Source: Anaeromyxobacter soli (lineage in GTDB: Bacteria > Myxococcota > Myxococcia > Myxococcales > Anaeromyxobacteraceae). Taken from it: a stretch of 64,000 bases of DNA. This document shows, one piece after another, positions 56,200-64,000 of this stretch; the stretch's first letter is position 1, and every line of letters begins with the position of its first letter. The notes beneath the pieces are model-generated. The model was not told the origin of the DNA, made no database searches, and saw nothing but the letters and a program-made list of their open reading frames with translations. A program made the translations under genes and the position numbers. Location of the stretch: the NCBI RefSeq assembly GCF_022808855.1, contig NZ_JAKZLF010000013.1, positions 1 through 64,000 on the forward strand. Direction: 5' to 3'.

Positions 56200-57441
56200 T
56201 CATCCCGCACCCCCGAAGGGCGCCTCGGATCCCATCGCCCGGGCGAGCTCTGCCTCGGCCTCCGCGAGCTCCGCGAGCGCCTCCACGTGCTCCCGCCTCG
56301 CCTCGACGGCGCCACGCCGGATGAGCAGCAGCTCGGCGACCCCGATCTTTCCGGCGTCGTAAGCCTTCGTCGCGAGCGTGACGTTCGCCGCGGCGCCGGC
56401 GAGGGCCTCGCCCTCGAACGCCTGAGCGGCCTCCGCGGCGGTCTCGAGCCGCGAGACGGCCAGCCGCACCTCCTCACGGACGCGCCGCTCCGCCGCTGCG
56501 ACCTCGGCCTCGGCCCGCGCCACGCGGGCCGAGGCGAGGCCTCGCCCGCCCTGGTTACGGTTGAAGACCGGCAGCTCGAACGTGAGCGTCCCGAGGACCA
56601 CGTCGGCCCCCTCCTCGCGGGAGTACCTTCCGCCGATCGCCGGAGCGGGAAGCGACTCGCGTCGCGCGAGCCGCACCTCGCTCTCGGCCGCGGCGAGCTC
56701 GCGCCGCGCCGCGACGAGATCCGTCCGGGCGGACAGCGCCCGGTTCACGAGGCCCTCGGTGTCGAGGGGGGCGGCGCGGATCGCCCGCGGCAGCGCGCCG
56801 GCGAGCTCGAGCGGCGCGCCCGGCTCGCTGCCGAGCAGCGTCCGCAGCTCGGACAGCGCGGACGCTTGTCGCCGAGACGCTACCGCGACCGCTCGCGCCG
56901 CGCGTGCTCCCTCCACGCGCGCCGCGTTCACCTCGAGCTGCGTCGTCGCGCCGAGCTCGAAACGCCGCTCGACCGCGTGCACGGCGTCACGGGCGACCGT
57001 GAGGTCCTCACGTGCGAGCGCGATCAGCCGCTCGGCCGCGAGCACGCGTGCGAACGAGGCGCGGACCTCGGACGCGAGCCCGACGCGTCGCGCCGCGAGG
57101 CGCGCCTCGGACACGTCCCGCTCCGCCGACGTCACGTCGATCCGCGCGCCGCGCTGACCGAAGAGCTCGACGCGCTGCGAGACTGCGACCTCGACGTCGG
57201 TCGTGCGCCGGTCGCCCCGGCTCCGTGGGCCGGCGGCCGCCGAGATCTCCGGGTTGGCTCGAAGCGGGAGCTCCGCGTCGGCGAGCCGCGCGCGGGCCGC
57301 CCGGGCCTCCGCGGCGAGCCCGGCGAGCTCCGGGTTCCGCTCCAGCGCGATCGCGACCGCGCGCTCGCTCGTGAGGGGTTCCGCCCCTGCCGCCGACGCC
57401 AGGCAGACGGCCGCCGCGGCGGCGATGTTCTTCGCGTTCAC
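56200..57441 (-). CDS. czcC: outer-membrane efflux protein (CzcC/TolC family)
   Basis: 413-residue outer-membrane channel with a signal peptide (about 20 residues, AAAAAVCLASAAGA). Two OEP repeats are visible: AVAIALERNPELAGLAAEARAARARLADAELPLRANPEI and, in the second half, EEVRLAVSRLETAAEAAQAFEGEALAGAAANVTLATKAYDAGKIGVAELL. Long helices and the small-residue pattern match CzcC. It joins CzcA and CzcB to export metal ions through the envelope. The ATG overlaps the czcA stop by 4 bp. Confidence 0.88.
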   Translation of the reverse strand: MNAKNIAAAAAVCLASAAGAEPLTSERAVAIALERNPELAGLAAEARAARARLADAELPLRANPEISAAAGPRSRGDRRTTDVEVAVSQRVELFGQRGARIDVTSAERDVSEARLAARRVGLASEVRASFARVLAAERLIALAREDLTVARDAVHAVERRFELGATTQLEVNAARVEGARAARAVAVASRRQASALSELRTLLGSEPGAPLELAGALPRAIRAAPLDTEGLVNRALSARTDLVAARRELAAAESEVRLARRESLPAPAIGGRYSREEGADVVLGTLTFELPVFNRNQGGRGLASARVARAEAEVAAAERRVREEVRLAVSRLETAAEAAQAFEGEALAGAAANVTLATKAYDAGKIGVAELLLIRRGAVEARREHVEALAELAEAEAELARAMGSEAPFGGAG

Positions 57442-60400
57442 GCCCGCTCCTCCCGTGCCGCCGAAAGCCCGGATCGTTCGGGCTCGCGCTCCGGGTCCAG
57501 GTCCTCCTCTCGCTCACCGCGCTCCGCGTCGCCCTTCGCCCGCAGCGCGGTGAACAGGACGGGCATCACGAGCAGCGTGAGCGCGGTGGACGACAGGACG
57601 CCGCCTATCACGACCGTCGCGAGCGGTCGCTGGACCTCGGCGCCCGGTCCCGTCGCGAGCGCCATGGGGATGAACCCGAGCGATGCCACCGACGCGGTCA
57701 TGAGCACCGGCCGAAGCCGGGAGATCGCCGCCTCGCGTACCGCCTCGAGGAGCGCGACGCCCCGGTCGAGCAGCTGCCGGACACGCGAGACGAGCACGAG
57801 CCCATTCAGCACCGCGACGCCGAACAGCGCCACGAACCCGACCGCCGCCGAGATCGAGAACGGCAGCCCGCGCGCGGTCAGCGCCAGGATGCCTCCGACG
57901 AGGGCGAAGGGTACGCCGCTGAAGATGCGGAGCGTGTCGAGCAGGCGCCCGCTCGAGGCGTGGATCAAGAGGAACACCAGCGCGAGCGCGATCGGCACCA
58001 CGACGAGGAGCCGCGTGCGGGCGCGCTCCAGGTTCGTGAACTGCCCGCCGAAGCGCACGAAGTAGCCGTCGGGCAGCTCCACCCGCTCGCCGATCGCCTG
58101 CCGGGCCGCCGCCACGAAGGACCCGAGATCGCGGCCGTGCACGTTCGCCTGGACCACCACGCGCCGCTTGCCCCACTCCCGCTGGATGGTCGTCGGGCCC
58201 GAGTGCTCCTCGACGTGCGTGAGCCGCGAGAGCGGGATCCGCTCGCCGGCGGGGCCCGGCACCTGCACGGCCCCCAGCGCCTCGGGATCCCGGAACTCCT
58301 CCGGGAGGCGGACGCCGAGCGCGAAGCGGCGGTCCCCCTCGCGGATCTCTCCCACGTGGCGGATCCCGACCGCCTCCGTGGCGTCGAGCACGCTGCGGGC
58401 GGTGATCCCGTACCGGGCGATGGCGTCGCGGTCCACGGTGACCTGGAGCACGGGCTGCCCGGTCACCTGCTCCACCGTCACGTCCGCGGCCCCGGGGATG
58501 CCCCTCAGCACCGTCTCGACCTCGCGTGCCTTCGCGCGAAGGAGGTCGAGATCGTCGCCGAACAGCTTCACGCCCAGGTCGCTGCGGATGCCGGCGACCA
58601 TCTCGTTGAGCCGCATCTCGATGGGCTGCGTGAAGGCGAGCCGCTCGCCCGGGAGGCCCTCGAGCTCCTTTCGCATCGCCTCGACGAGCTCGGCTTGCGT
58701 GTGCGCGCGCTTCCAGCGCTCCCGCGGGCGGAGCGCCACGAACACGTCGGACAGCTCGACGCCCATCGGATCCGTCGCGACCTCCGGCGTGCCGGTGCGT
58801 GTCCAGACGCGCTCCGCCTCGTCCGGGAACTTCGCCAGGATCACCTGCTCGATCCGCTCGCCCATGCGGACGGACTCGTCGAGCGAGACCTCGGCGAGGC
58901 GCGCGACGTTCACGACGATCGTCCCCTCCGACAGGCGCGGCACGAACTCGCTCCCGAGCCGGAGCGCGCCGATCGCCGCCAGCGCGACGACCGCCGCGGC
59001 GCCGCCGAGTACCCACCGTGAGTGCGCCATCGTCCACGCGAGGATCGGCGCGTACGTCCGCTTCAGCCATCCCACCCACCTCGGCTCCGGGTGGGCACCC
59101 CTGCGAAGCGCCAGCGACGCGAGCACCGGCGCGAGCGTCATCGACAGGAGGACGGAGCCGAGCAGCGCGAGCACGACGGTGAGCGCCATCGGCCGGAACA
59201 GCTTCCCCTCGACGCCCTCGAGCGTGAGGATCGGCAGGTACACGAGCGCGATGATGAGCTCACCGAAGAGCGTCGGCTTGCGCACCTCGACGGCCGCGTC
59301 GCGCACGACCTCGCTGACCGTGCGCCGCCCGCCCTCCATTCCCAGGCGCCGCTCGGCGTTCTCGACCAGGATCACGGAGCTGTCCACGACCAGCCCGAAG
59401 TCGATCGCGCCGAGAGACATGAGCGTCCCGGCGACGCCGAACCGCAGCATCCCCGTGAACGCGAAGAGCAGGGAGAGCGGGATGGCGCTCGCCACGATCA
59501 GCCCTGCGCGGAGGTTCCCGAGGAACGCGAACAGCACCGCCACGACGAGGAGCGCCCCCTCGAGCAGGTTGTTCCGGACCGTCCGCAGCACGAGGTCCAC
59601 GAGCTCGGTGCGCTCGTAGACCGGCTCGGCCGTGATTCCGGCAGGGAGGCTCTTCTGGAGGTCCGCGAGGCGCGCCGCGAGCGCCTTCGTGACCTCGTGG
59701 CTGTTCTCGTGGACGAGCATGAAGCCGAGCCCGAGCACGGCCTCGCCCTCGCCGTCCGCCGTGACGGCCGCGCGGCGGATCTCGTGCCCGACCTCGACGC
59801 GGGCGACGTCGCGGATCCGCACGGGCACGCCGTCGTGCGCGGCGACGACCACGCCTTCGACGTCGCGCCCGTCCGTGAGCGCGCCGACGCCCAGCACGAG
59901 GCGGCTCGTCCCGCCGCGATCGAGGACGCCGCCGCCGACGTTCGCGTTGTTCTTCTCGAGCGCCTCGTAGACGTCGCCGAGCGACAGGTCGAACTTCTGG
60001 AGGCGGCGCGGATCGACGACGACGTGCCACTGCTTCTCGTTGCCGCCCCAGGCGTTCACCTCGGCCACCCCGGGGACGCTCCGGAGCTGGGGCGCCACGA
60101 TCCAGTCGTGCGCGGTCCGGATCTCCTCGAGCGACCTGCCCTTCCCCTTCACGAGATAGTGGAAGACCTCGCCGAGACCGGTCGCGACCGGCCCGAGCGC
60201 CGGCCGTTCGATGCCCGCGGGGAGCTCGAGCCGGGAGAGTCGCTCCGAGACCTGCTGCCGGGCGAACCACAGGTCCGTGCCGTCCTCGAACTGGACGGTG
60301 ATCTGCGAGAGCCCGAACTTCGAGATGGAGCGGAGGTCCTCGACCTTCGGCAGCCCCGCGAGCACCTGCTCTACGGGGATCGTGAGCTGCCGCTCGACCT

Positions 60401-60578
60401 CGAGCGGCGCCAGGGCGGGCGCGACCGTGTTCACCTGCACCTGCACGGGCGTCGTGTCCGGGAAGGCGTCCATGGGGAGCGCGCGGAACGAGAGCACCCC
60501 GGCGACGACGATCGCGATCCAGGCGCCGACGACGGCCCGGCGGTGCCCGAGGGACCACTCGATGATTCGCGTGAGCAC
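57438..60578 (-). CDS. czcA: heavy-metal RND efflux pump (CzcA)
   Basis: 1046-residue inner-membrane proton-driven exporter with twelve hydrophobic segments and two large periplasmic loops. The fourth-helix region AIDFGLVVDSSVILVENAERRL contains the two Asp and one Glu of the proton pathway in the arrangement of the Zn/Co/Cd (HME1-2) pumps rather than the Cu/Ag ones. PMDAFPDTTPVQVQVNTVAPALAPLEVE is the N-terminal block. It is 8 bp downstream of czcB. Substrate is likely divalent Zn, Cd or Co, consistent with the CadC-type regulator. Confidence 0.93.
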   Translation of the reverse strand: MLTRIIEWSLGHRRAVVGAWIAIVVAGVLSFRALPMDAFPDTTPVQVQVNTVAPALAPLEVERQLTIPVEQVLAGLPKVEDLRSISKFGLSQITVQFEDGTDLWFARQQVSERLSRLELPAGIERPALGPVATGLGEVFHYLVKGKGRSLEEIRTAHDWIVAPQLRSVPGVAEVNAWGGNEKQWHVVVDPRRLQKFDLSLGDVYEALEKNNANVGGGVLDRGGTSRLVLGVGALTDGRDVEGVVVAAHDGVPVRIRDVARVEVGHEIRRAAVTADGEGEAVLGLGFMLVHENSHEVTKALAARLADLQKSLPAGITAEPVYERTELVDLVLRTVRNNLLEGALLVVAVLFAFLGNLRAGLIVASAIPLSLLFAFTGMLRFGVAGTLMSLGAIDFGLVVDSSVILVENAERRLGMEGGRRTVSEVVRDAAVEVRKPTLFGELIIALVYLPILTLEGVEGKLFRPMALTVVLALLGSVLLSMTLAPVLASLALRRGAHPEPRWVGWLKRTYAPILAWTMAHSRWVLGGAAAVVALAAIGALRLGSEFVPRLSEGTIVVNVARLAEVSLDESVRMGERIEQVILAKFPDEAERVWTRTGTPEVATDPMGVELSDVFVALRPRERWKRAHTQAELVEAMRKELEGLPGERLAFTQPIEMRLNEMVAGIRSDLGVKLFGDDLDLLRAKAREVETVLRGIPGAADVTVEQVTGQPVLQVTVDRDAIARYGITARSVLDATEAVGIRHVGEIREGDRRFALGVRLPEEFRDPEALGAVQVPGPAGERIPLSRLTHVEEHSGPTTIQREWGKRRVVVQANVHGRDLGSFVAAARQAIGERVELPDGYFVRFGGQFTNLERARTRLLVVVPIALALVFLLIHASSGRLLDTLRIFSGVPFALVGGILALTARGLPFSISAAVGFVALFGVAVLNGLVLVSRVRQLLDRGVALLEAVREAAISRLRPVLMTASVASLGFIPMALATGPGAEVQRPLATVVIGGVLSSTALTLLVMPVLFTALRAKGDAERGEREEDLDPEREPERSGLSAAREERA

Positions 60579-60586
60579 GGTCGCTC

Positions 60587-62140
60587 CTAGTCGTCGGCGC
60601 AGCCAGCGCCGATGGAGTCCTTCAGGATCTCGGTCTTGAGGACGAACGCGCCGGTCGTGACGACCTCCGAGCCGGGCGCGAGGCCGCCGACGACCTCCAC
60701 GTCACCGCCGACCCGCGCGCCGAGCCGGACCGCGACGGGGTCGTACTGGCCCGGCGCGGTCCGCACGAACACGAGATCGTGCTCCTGCGCCCGCTGGATC
60801 GCGTCGCGCGGGACGAGGAGGGCGCCCCGCGGCGCGGCCACCTCGATGGTGCCGTGCACGAACGCGCCTGCCCGGAGCGCTCGGTCCTGGTTCGGCAGGT
60901 CCACGCGGACGCGGACCGTTCGCGTCCGCGGGTCGACCGACGCGGGCACGCGCGCGACGCGCGCCTCGCGGACCTCACCGGACCCGTCGACGCGAACCGT
61001 CACCTTCTGGCCTGCGCGGAGCGCTCCCGCGTGCTCCTCGGGGACCTCGAGCACGGCCCAGAGCGTGCGGACGTCCGCGATCTCGACGAGGGAGTCCTCC
61101 GGCGAGACCGCCCGTCCCGCGACGGCGGCCCGCGCGACCACGGTCCCATCGAACGGGGCGACGAGCGCGTACCGGCCGCCGCTCCCCGCTGCGCCCGCGC
61201 CTGCGGCGCGCAGCTCGGCTCGAGCCGCGTCACGCTCGGCCTCGGCCGCGGCGAGCTCCGTGCGCGCCTGCTCCACGTCGCGTCGCGAGCTGATCCCGTC
61301 GCCCACGAGCGACTCCTCACGGGCGAGCGCTGCCCGCGCCGACTGAGCGCGCGCCTCGGCCGCGGCGAGCCTCGACTGCGCCCCGCCGACGGCGCCGGAA
61401 GCGAGCACGACGAGCGGCTGGCCTCGGCGGACGTCCTCGCCCACGTCGACCTTCACCTCGACGACGGTCGCCTCGCCGCGCGCGGACAGCCGCGCGAGCT
61501 TGTTCTGGTCGAACTCGAGCTGGCCGACCGCCTCGATCCTCGGCGCGAACGGACGCTCCACGACGCGCGTGGTCACGATCCCGGCTTCCCGCTCCAGCTC
61601 TGCGGAGGCGAGGCGGATCTTCGTCCCCGGCTCCGGAAACGAGGGGAGCTCGTGCCCGGCGGCCTTCACCTTCTCGGGGTGACAGTACGGGCACACGGAC
61701 TCGGGATACCCGTGCTCGCGGCAGTAGTCGCCGGCCTGGATGAACTTCGCGATGAGCTGCGGCCGGCACTTCGTGCACATCTCCTCGGGGACCGCGTGCT
61801 CCTTGCACCAGGGCAAGGGGCCCGGCGCGGCCTTCGCCGTCGTCTTCGCGGCCGCGAACGTGAGCCCTGGGTTGCACTTCACGCACTGCGACTCGGGGAC
61901 GCCGTGCTCGTTGCACCAGTCGCCCATCTCCTTGAACGCCGGGATGAGGTCCGGGTTGCACCTCGTGCACAGGTCCGCGGGGACGCCGTGCTCGCAGAGC
62001 CTCGGCGCCTCGGCGCTCGCGGCGTGCGCCGCCTTCTCCGAGGTGCCGCCGTGCGGTCCCTCCGCGCCCGGCGCCGTGCGCGTGCAACCTGCCCCCGCGA
62101 CGACCGCGGCGAGCGCTACCGTCAGGGCGACCCGGGTCAC
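60587..62140 (-). CDS. czcB: RND periplasmic adaptor (CzcB) with four-unit Cys/His repeat domain
   Basis: 517 residues. After a signal peptide with possible lipidation at Cys 19, residues 49-154 hold four repeats of C-x(1,2)-H-x(6)-C-x(2)-C: C49-H51-C58-C61, C76-H79-C86-C89, C112-H115-C122-C125 and C140-H143-C150-C153. From about residue 175 a normal CzcB adaptor follows, with barrel and lipoyl halves (EAVGQLEFDQNKLARLSARGEATVVEVKVDVGEDVRRGQPLVVLAS), a coiled hairpin, and the DGTVVARAAVAGRAVSPEDSL return. The GTG start overlaps the upstream stop (GTGA), with GGAGG 7 nt before. The repeats probably bind metal. Confidence 0.9.
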   Translation of the reverse strand: MTRVALTVALAAVVAGAGCTRTAPGAEGPHGGTSEKAAHAASAEAPRLCEHGVPADLCTRCNPDLIPAFKEMGDWCNEHGVPESQCVKCNPGLTFAAAKTTAKAAPGPLPWCKEHAVPEEMCTKCRPQLIAKFIQAGDYCREHGYPESVCPYCHPEKVKAAGHELPSFPEPGTKIRLASAELEREAGIVTTRVVERPFAPRIEAVGQLEFDQNKLARLSARGEATVVEVKVDVGEDVRRGQPLVVLASGAVGGAQSRLAAAEARAQSARAALAREESLVGDGISSRRDVEQARTELAAAEAERDAARAELRAAGAGAAGSGGRYALVAPFDGTVVARAAVAGRAVSPEDSLVEIADVRTLWAVLEVPEEHAGALRAGQKVTVRVDGSGEVREARVARVPASVDPRTRTVRVRVDLPNQDRALRAGAFVHGTIEVAAPRGALLVPRDAIQRAQEHDLVFVRTAPGQYDPVAVRLGARVGGDVEVVGGLAPGSEVVTTGAFVLKTEILKDSIGAGCADD

Positions 62141-62400
62141 TTCACGCCCTCCTTCGCGAGCTTCGGGTTGCACCGGGCGCACTGGCTCTCGGGCACGCCG
62201 TGCTCCCCGCACCAGTCGCCCTTCGCCTTGAACACGGGGACGAGCTTCGGGTTGCACCGCGTGCAGAGCGTCTTCTTCACGCCGTGCTCGCACCTGGCCG
62301 CGGTGGAGTCCGCCGCGCGCGCGGCCGGCTCGGCGGCACGGCCCGGGACGGCGGAGGTGAACAGGGTGACCAAGCCGAGCGCGAGGACGATCGTGCGCAT
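62137..62400 (-). CDS. small secreted protein with two Cys/His repeats
   Basis: 87 residues. A signal peptide (IVLALGLVTLFTSAVPG) precedes two copies of the unit found in the adjacent CzcB: C37-H39-C46-C49 (CEHGVKKTLCTRC) and C64-H67-C74-C77 (CGEHGVPESQCARC), joined by NPKLVPVFKAKGDW, almost the same linker as in CzcB. A ribosome site (AAGGAG) supports ATG 62400. It overlaps the czcB start by 4 bp. I infer a periplasmic metal-binding protein that hands ions to the adaptor. Confidence 0.85.
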   Translation of the reverse strand: MRTIVLALGLVTLFTSAVPGRAAEPAARAADSTAARCEHGVKKTLCTRCNPKLVPVFKAKGDWCGEHGVPESQCARCNPKLAKEGVK

Positions 62401-62529: not shown

Positions 62530-62835
62530 TCAGGCTCTCGGCGGGTGAAACACGCCGGCCGTCACCACCGGGAGCCGAGGCGACGCCTGCGCGACGACGA
62601 CGCTGCGCACGATCGTCGCTGCTGCCGGGCCGGGGCACGGCGCGCCGACCACGGCGAGGGATGCATGCACGTTCGCGCAGATGCCCTGGGCGCAGTTCGG
62701 CGGACAGTGCTTGCCGTCCAGCGCGCCGTCGCACGCCGCTGCGCAGTCGTCGTCCAGCGCGGCCGTGAGGACCTGGGGGACGCCCGACGTGAACACGCCG
62801 ACGGCGACGAGGACGAGCACACGCAGGAGGCGCAT
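62530..62835 (-). CDS. small secreted Cys-rich protein of the metal-efflux operon
   Basis: 101 residues: signal peptide (LLRVLVLVAVGVFTSGVPQVLTA), then an acidic Cys-rich segment DDDCAAACDGALDGKHCPPNC followed by AQGICANVH (five Cys in this region, one more in GAPCPG), and a C-terminus ending VFHPPRA. Small proteins of this sort with a Cys/Asp-rich middle accompany heavy-metal RND operons, but I cannot name the family. The ATG lies 2 bp after the CadC-type stop. A 129-bp gap separates it from the next gene. Confidence 0.75.
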   Translation of the reverse strand: MRLLRVLVLVAVGVFTSGVPQVLTAALDDDCAAACDGALDGKHCPPNCAQGICANVHASLAVVGAPCPGPAAATIVRSVVVAQASPRLPVVTAGVFHPPRA

Positions 62836-62837
62836 GC

Positions 62838-63227
62838 TCACCGCGTCCCTTCGAGCGCGGTCTCGAGCGCTTCCCGGACCCACGCGTCGGCGAGGCTGTA
62901 GTACGCGAGCTTGCCGTCCATTCGGAACTTCACGAGGCCGAGCCTGCGGAGGAGCTGCAGCTGCTGCGAGGTGGCGGGCATCGAGCGCCCCGCGACCTTC
63001 GAGAGATCGCAGACGCACAGCTCGGCGCGGCAGAGCGCGTGCAGGATGCGGACCCGGGTGGGATCGGAGAGCGCCGAGAACCGCTCGGCGACCTGCAAGA
63101 TGGCCGCGTCGTCCGGGGCCGCGGCGCGAACCGCGGCGACCCTGCGCGCGTCCACGCACACCACCGCGCACTCACCCGACGCGTCGAGGCGCGGGGGACG
63201 GGCACGGCGGGGTCGGGCGGAAGTCAC
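62838..63227 (-). CDS. CadC/SmtB-type metal-responsive repressor (ArsR family)
   Basis: 129-residue winged-helix repressor. The ELCVCDL metal-binding motif lies in the first DNA-binding helix and SMPATSQQLQLLRRLGLVKFRMDGKLAYYSLAD is the reader and wing. The N-terminus carries CAVVC (residues about 20-24) followed by VDARRV, which mirrors the C-x3-C-x-D-x2-[KR]-V start of staphylococcal CadC, where these cysteines and the CVC pair form the Cd/Pb site. It should release DNA when Cd, Pb or Zn binds. GTG 63227 is the best start that keeps the first Cys pair. It is the first gene of the efflux operon. Confidence 0.88.
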   Translation of the reverse strand: MTSARPRRARPPRLDASGECAVVCVDARRVAAVRAAAPDDAAILQVAERFSALSDPTRVRILHALCRAELCVCDLSKVAGRSMPATSQQLQLLRRLGLVKFRMDGKLAYYSLADAWVREALETALEGTR

Positions 63228-63240
63228 TTCCACGACTTCG

Positions 63241-63285: not shown

Positions 63286-64000
63286 TCACCGCAGCGTCTT
63301 CAGGAACAGGAGCAGATCGTCCCAATCCTGCCCGCTCAGCTGCCAGCGCGGCATGCGGGGGTCGAGCGTCTCGCCGTCGGCGCCGACGCCCTCGACGACC
63401 GCGCGGCGGATGAGCTCGTCCGTATACGTGGGGCCTCGAGTGCCGTCGGGCTCGCGCAGGCCGGACGGGTCCGTGAGGTTCGGGTACGTGATGTTCGGCG
63501 TCGTGAACATCATGGTGCGGAGGCCATGCCCATCGGACCCGTGACAGCCTGCGCAGCCGCTCCTGGTCATCATCATCATCCCGAAGCCGCCGCTGCGGAC
63601 GATCGGCTGTCCGTCAGCGCCGATCCCCCAGTCGAAGATGCGCTCGCCGAGAGCGACGGGATCGCCGCTCGGGCCGGGGACGACGCCCGGGCCACCGCCG
63701 CATCCGTTCGCCATCGGTCCCCAGCCGTAGCCGTAGCCGTCGAGACCGCTCATCATCTGTCCGCACCGCGCGTAGACGTGCGCGGAGTACGAGGCCATGA
63801 CGTCCGCGTGACGGAAGGCCTCCGCCTGGTCGTCGGTCAGGCTCGCGAAGGTGCACGCGACGCGGCCGTGCGCGTCGAGCTCGGCGAGCATCGCGCTCGC
63901 GACGCAGCTCATGTCCACGTACGCGACGCCGTCGTGCGCACCGATGAAGCCGTCCATCGCGCCGCTCAGCTGGACCATCTGCGAGATCCACGGACGCACC
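63286..64000 (-). CDS. c-type cytochrome, 5' end outside the window
   Basis: The visible 237 residues are the C-terminal part; the frame is open to the right edge, so signal peptide and start are not seen. One haem motif CAGCHGSDGHG is followed by PRMPRWQLSGQDWDDLLLFLKTL, with Met as probable sixth ligand, as in cytochrome c class I domains. Before it lies a Met/Gly/Tyr-rich stretch (MMSGLDGYGYGWGPMANGCGGG) and MMMMTRSGC, unusual for a cytochrome. It is the next gene upstream of the metal-efflux operon on the same strand. Confidence 0.72.
   Translation of the reverse strand, partial: VRPWISQMVQLSGAMDGFIGAHDGVAYVDMSCVASAMLAELDAHGRVACTFASLTDDQAEAFRHADVMASYSAHVYARCGQMMSGLDGYGYGWGPMANGCGGGPGVVPGPSGDPVALGERIFDWGIGADGQPIVRSGGFGMMMMTRSGCAGCHGSDGHGLRTMMFTTPNITYPNLTDPSGLREPDGTRGPTYTDELIRRAVVEGVGADGETLDPRMPRWQLSGQDWDDLLLFLKTLR

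Follow-up and report, generated by a model that had tools for sequence, protein, structure and literature searches.

Here we describe a repeated Cys-His-Cys-Cys unit that is shared by an RND periplasmic adaptor and a small exported protein of Anaeromyxobacter soli, and we propose, with a probability of roughly two in three, that the unit forms a small Cys3His metal site by itself, and that its operon provides an RND exporter with a thiol-based metal relay in the periplasm. The proposal builds on the observed units and their operon, the conservation of the ligands, the swaps among them, the confidence of the predicted fold and the linkage to thioredoxin.

The reverse strand of the window (the whole 64-kb stretch of DNA that was analysed) carries an apparent operon in the order ArsR/SmtB repressor, Cys-rich exported protein, 87-residue two-unit protein, RND adaptor, pump and channel:

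62838-63233, reverse strand: ArsR/SmtB repressor, the first gene of the operon, start codon uncertain (NF033788 above cut-off; SmtB, CadC and Lmo1102 matches)
62530-62835, reverse strand: second small exported Cys-rich protein with the C-terminus FHPPRA (translation; without Pfam match)
62137-62400, reverse strand: 87-residue exported protein, mostly two CHCC units behind a signal peptide (translation)
60587-62140, reverse strand: RND periplasmic adaptor (CzcB/ZneB-like) with a GTG start and four units before the adaptor fold (HlyD_D23, 2e-40; TIGR01730; ZneB 3lnn)
57438-60578, reverse strand: RND pump of the CusA/CzcA family, with the Met triad of CusA absent (TIGR00914; alignment to ZneA and CusA)
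56200-57441, reverse strand: outer-membrane channel of the CzcC/TolC type (OEP, 6.8e-42)

The overlap of the small gene with the adaptor gene that was reported in the preliminary description was confirmed as a GTGA, formed by the TGA stop of the small gene (62139-62137) and the GTG start of the adaptor (62140-62138), with AAGGAGG upstream. The pump and channel genes also overlap, stop over start, and the two overlaps make co-translation likely. The adaptor had been named CzcB; it is indeed an RND adaptor according to PF16576 (HlyD_D23; 138.8 bits, threshold 30) and TIGR01730 (178.6 bits, threshold 94.9), but with 192.9 bits it stays below the cut-off of the CzcB/NccB subfamily TIGR00999 (319.3), and CzcB is therefore a loose name for it. 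The pump reaches 1165.8 bits with TIGR00914 (CusA/CzcA heavy-metal RND; cut-off 701.45) and is closest to ZneA, its best PDB match being ZneA 4k0e.

Some further features of the region were observed. Homologues of the exported protein at 62530-62835, with a C-terminal F-x-PPRA and varying Cys clusters, lie upstream of the small unit protein or of a unit adaptor, and most Myxococcales loci with enough flank have one in this position. A protein with a CAGCH haem-binding motif is encoded upstream of the ArsR gene (63286-63999, reverse strand). The adaptor itself has a G-A-G-C ending (60587-60630, reverse strand), in which C514, nearly invariant in 22 unit-bearing adaptors, may act as an additional metal ligand.

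A six-frame scan of the 64-kb window for C-x(1,2)-H-x(6)-C-x2-C located six units, all at 61682-62292 on the reverse strand and none elsewhere, and thus reproduced the two units in the small protein and four in the adaptor that had been described:

62254-62292, reverse strand: small protein unit 1, CEHGVKKTLCTRC (motif scan)
62170-62211, reverse strand: small protein unit 2, CGEHGVPESQCARC (motif scan)
61958-61996, reverse strand: adaptor unit 1 (motif scan)
61874-61915, reverse strand: adaptor unit 2 (motif scan)
61766-61807, reverse strand: adaptor unit 3 (motif scan)
61682-61723, reverse strand: adaptor unit 4 (motif scan)
61874-61996, reverse strand: adaptor units 1 and 2, CEHGVPADLCTRC and CNEHGVPESQCVKC, with the linker FKEMGDW (folded mini-domain in the model)
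61682-61807, reverse strand: adaptor units 3 and 4, CKEHAVPEEMCTKC and CREHGYPESVCPYC, with the linker FIQAGDY (motif scan and model)

The spacing C-x(1,2)-H given earlier holds overall, with the correction that in unit 1 of both proteins a single residue separates C and H; the ligands of the 87-residue protein are C37-x-H39...C46-x2-C49 and C64-x2-H67...C74-x2-C77. Two units in the small protein were equalled in 10 of 100,000 residue shuffles, and the four of the adaptor were never reached by shuffling. The two proteins also have a linker in common, which reads FKAKGDWC in the small protein, FKEMGDWC between adaptor units 1 and 2 and FIQAGDYC between adaptor units 3 and 4, and unit pairs including this F-K-x(2)-G-D-[WY]-C linker share 49-65% identity with the first adaptor pair, taken as reference. 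In a tree of the pairs from Myxococcales, the small protein, adaptor units 1-2 and adaptor units 3-4 formed three groups, each with both Anaeromyxobacter and Myxococcus members, indicating that the duplications predate the split of these genera. The duplication that had been suspected from the linker is therefore borne out, and it is an old one, leaving three paralogous groups of pairs across Myxococcales.

Searches of Pfam, NCBIfam, PDB sequences and PDB folds with the unit gave nothing above threshold, in agreement with the earlier remark that it was not recognised as a named family. Weak Pfam matches to zf-C6H2, B-box, EsV-1-7 and HMBD were all under cut-off and were dropped. The literature search found no paper that describes the unit, and a plasmid collection contributed two weak planctomycete matches only. 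The unit is a widespread module, not yet named, on a known kind of machine.

The three Cys and one His per unit, as originally claimed, proved to be strongly conserved. All four ligands, in the pattern C-x(1,2)-H-x(5,6)-C-x2-C, are kept in 477 of 487 units, which come from 178 frames with related species included. Six of the ten exceptions have His for the last Cys, two stop at a UGA, and the remaining ones have lost a single ligand or are unclear. The His variants (CPVHH, CPIHH, CKVHD and CVKHH) come from related species and so represent perhaps three independent events. As read from the sequences, a His at the position of the last Cys is compatible with a metal site and not with a disulfide, and with three Cys the thiols of a unit cannot all pair off within it. 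In a 49-row alignment of diverse pairs, the ten invariant columns are the eight Cys/His ligands together with D62 and S72, and in units 3-4 of 22 adaptors seven of the eight ligands never vary and the eighth is almost constant. The conserved ligands, the swaps among them and the gene context thus suggest that the units bind metal.

AlphaFold2 modelled the small protein with a pLDDT of ~85-92 over the units, each predicted as a short hairpin and the CxxC followed by a helix, and a PDB fold search with this model returned no relative. In the adaptor model, each of the two pairs folds as a mini-domain of its own, with a disordered linker (96-106) between them, and behind them stands a ZneB/CusB-like adaptor, for which ZneB (3lnn) was the top structural match in the PDB (E 3.5e-27).

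The ArsR of the window (P0006) carries the Cys pairs of CadC-type sensors, an N-terminal ECAVVC and an ELCVCD, as aligned to Lmo1102, and it matches CadC (1u2w) with an E of 1.6e-15. ArsR genes also lie close to the unit adaptors of three further groups (L220/L221, L223 and L169), and most of the distant ArsR homologues in such positions retain ELCVCD and a single N-terminal Cys. In CadC itself, Cd, Pb and Zn are sensed via Cys7, 11, 58 and 60 (PMC4287715), and a CadC-like ArsR at the start of the operon points to these metals. Our best guess is that Cd, Pb or Zn would be the metal, copper also being possible.

A scan of named genomes yielded 30 loci in Anaeromyxobacter, Myxococcus, Archangium, Corallococcus, other Deltaproteobacteria, Phycisphaerae, other Planctomycetota and one Nevskiales MAG, and the closest named relative of the window's genome was Anaeromyxobacter terrae. 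Among the sampled genomes, units were present in 57 of 195 Myxococcota, the phylum of the window, nearly all in one order, in 82 of 392 from the phylum of a Phycisphaerae MAG, in 21 of 141 from the phylum of locus L030, and in 5 of 247 from that of a deltaproteobacterial MAG. In the phylum to which the Nevskiales MAG belongs, 2 of 200 genomes had units, that MAG being one of the two, and its planctomycete-like locus may be a binning error. The claimed link to a metal RND pump is upheld by a czcA gene within reach in 26 of the 30 named loci, as well as by the TIGR00914 assignment of the window's pump; of the other four loci, L029 and L033 run out of contig, L031 lies near a contig start and L028 is a thioredoxin fusion.

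Four architectures were distinguished. In Myxococcales, a two-unit small protein accompanies a four-unit adaptor, while in Planctomycetota and others the adaptor has two to six units, with or without a two-unit small lipoprotein or a longer six-unit one; the planctomycete small proteins at L170, L178, L181 and L188 have added His-rich stretches. The third, again in Myxococcales, is a lipoprotein in which one unit pair is fused to a thioredoxin domain with WC-x2-C. The fourth is a DtxR/IdeR-type metal-dependent repressor (L192, 1477-1989, reverse strand) with a single weak unit-like match, CEHGLDESQCKKC, at its C-terminus, which may be convergent. Unit number varies freely from 2 to 6, with pairs gained or lost. 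In another genome of the window's genus (G005), two adaptor units only were found and the small protein was not detected, indicating that the full set of units is not essential.

Thioredoxin is a recurrent neighbour of the units. Of the Myxococcales loci whose upstream DNA is long enough, ten (L005, L006, L007, L009, L012, L013, L015, L016, L017 and L033) have a gene for a thioredoxin-like lipoprotein ahead of the small genes, four (the window, L004, L037 and L068) have ArsR in its place, and L008 has neither. Most Myxococcus-type operons thus encode a thioredoxin, the fold of which was confirmed by Pfam, and none is present in the window's own operon or the ArsR-type loci. In another phylum, a thioredoxin gene directly follows czcA (L021 and L030/L222). 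Fusions of a unit pair to a thioredoxin-like domain were found in five loci:

L064, 6509-7207, reverse strand: unit pair fused to a thioredoxin-like domain
L065, 6866-7579: the same fusion
L066, 6648-7337: the same fusion
L067: the same fusion
L028, 2145-2831: the same fusion

In L065, L067 and L028 the fusion is followed by a similar unclassified protein (SNPNLPVG...). No thioredoxin was seen near HMBD adaptors (L071-L100), the short flanks of which make this an unfair control. Given the thioredoxin genes in the operons and behind czcA, and the fusions with a unit pair, a functional link is likely, and most simply we infer that thioredoxin would be the reductant of the ligand thiols.

The two units that stop at a UGA belong to RND adaptors of related genomes from one order of the planctomycete phylum:

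L171 (genome G379, contig C405), 1684-1686, reverse strand: in-frame TGA at the fourth ligand of the unit
L183 (genome G405, contig C441), 1378-1380: in-frame TGA at the fourth ligand of the unit

Both UGA codons stand in the context ESQCPL-UGA-G, where relatives have Cys, in loci with the gene order arsR, czcC, adaptor and czcA. The frame before the TGA contains the sole membrane anchor and three units, and the frame after it three more units and the adaptor; near the TGA there is no start codon common to L171 and L183, and the downstream stretch has no signal sequence. A SECIS-like hairpin of six pairs with an AGUU loop begins 22 nt past the UGA and is kept in both loci with one A-U to G-U change; energies of shuffled sequences fail to single it out consistently, covariation is minimal with two sequences, and Rfam gave no match at the hairpin. 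SelB scored above the curated cut-off in G379 (partial) and G405, and a tRNA-Sec with the anticodon TCA was found in G405 and not in the fragmented G379. A search for more UGA-bearing relatives within the order returned the same two of 12 genomes only. The two adaptors, unlike that of the window, thus show the features expected of a bacterial selenoprotein, namely an in-frame UGA at a Cys position, a hairpin and Sec machinery, and selenocysteine is likely the fourth ligand in these candidates, which we regard as a strong prediction. Sec has been proposed as a metal ligand in other metal-resistance proteins, and a 2026 review of prokaryotic selenoproteins names metal transporters, while a term search of its main text gave no RND adaptor (PMC13188914).

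We suggest that the CadC-like ArsR would release the operon when a soft divalent metal rises, most likely Cd, Pb or Zn. The two-unit small protein would take up the metal in the periplasm and would probably deliver it to the adaptor's four tethered units, and the loaded adaptor units could in turn load or switch the CzcA pump. The periplasm is an oxidising compartment, so thiol ligands need to be kept reduced, a task that thioredoxin may perform in many relatives.

The proximity of CxxC motifs to thioredoxin, as separate genes and as fusions, and the CxxU generated by the in-frame UGA of two genomes could instead mean that the units are redox modules. In this reading they would alternate between the dithiol and disulfide states together with the neighbouring thioredoxin, and would serve the pump by redox switching or repair and not by carrying metal; Sec usually stands in for a redox-active Cys (PMC1794560). 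However, the His and the first Cys are conserved as strongly as the CxxC, and exchange of the last Cys for His destroys the dithiol yet preserves a metal site. Moreover, thioredoxin is missing from the window's operon and the ArsR-type loci, and the proposed ligand role of Sec in metal resistance offers another account of the CxxU, so that we consider redox modules unlikely. Quite unlikely, too, is a structural zinc mini-fold whose true job would be protein contact, such as a contact by which the small protein docks to the adaptor or to the outer-membrane channel. The invariant non-ligand residues (D62, S72, P-E-S and N-P) suggest a selected surface and the small fold is predicted confidently, but the freedom of unit number from 2 to 6 fits capacity better than one docking surface, and the CadC-like regulator links the operon to soft metals. 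That the units are a divergent branch of HMBD (PF19335), which occupies the same place before RND adaptors in tandem copies with the same ligand order C-x2-H...C-x2-C, is improbable, since this profile gave no match at E 1 in the window proteins and 9.4 bits in a six-unit relative (gathering cut-off 23.6), the hhalign alignment was confined to the CxxC...L part (23.7% probability over 10 columns, against 0.3% over the whole unit), and the H-to-C spacing and the context (G-M vs N-P) differ. The window's own genome does have a 1081-codon frame with two true HMBD domains (G000, contig C56, 74080-74304), so that two kinds of metal-binding module coexist there.

To our knowledge, the Met-based Cus system is the only one for which the periplasmic uptake of thiophilic ions by metal-exporting RND pumps is understood in detail. 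If the metal relay proposed here is true, a widespread Cys3His module common to adaptor and partner would be the thiolate counterpart of Cus, the link to thioredoxin would account for the survival of thiol ligands under oxidising conditions, and Sec as a ligand within an RND adaptor would widen both the selenoproteome and the chemistry of metal efflux. Thioredoxin and selenocysteine are two unexpected additions that raise the find above routine annotation. For the full proposal, of a new tandem periplasmic metal-thiolate family that, controlled by thioredoxin, passes soft metals on to RND pumps and has Sec as fourth ligand in the RND adaptor of one lineage of the planctomycete phylum, we see even odds.

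Several known systems share parts of this design. The putative Sec of L171 and L183 has its likeness in metal-resistance selenoproteins, MerT-like proteins, a cation ATPase and SaoB/SaoC, where Sec likewise occurs in a metal-handling protein (PMC13188914). HMBD resembles the unit in location, tandem copies and ligand order, but has the flanking motif C-P-M-H-P...C-P-x-C-G-M-x-L. The adaptor fold and the pump family are those of Cupriavidus ZneB/ZneA and CzcB/CzcA, with ZneB (3lnn) and ZneA (4k0e) the best PDB matches, whereas the PDB match of the window's adaptor to ZneB begins at residue 197, behind the units. In CusCBAF of E. coli, metal transfer from CusF to CusB activates CusA (PMC6235853), and here too a small, putatively metal-binding periplasmic protein, a putative metal stretch at the front of the adaptor and an RND pump are encoded together, a likeness of design and not of sequence, by which a relay of the CusF/CusB N-terminus type would be a better parallel than a passive sponge. 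In contrast to the present operon, CusF, a Met2His protein, shows no resemblance in sequence and the CusB N-terminus is a disordered three-Met site, while both partners described here share one tandem Cys3His unit.
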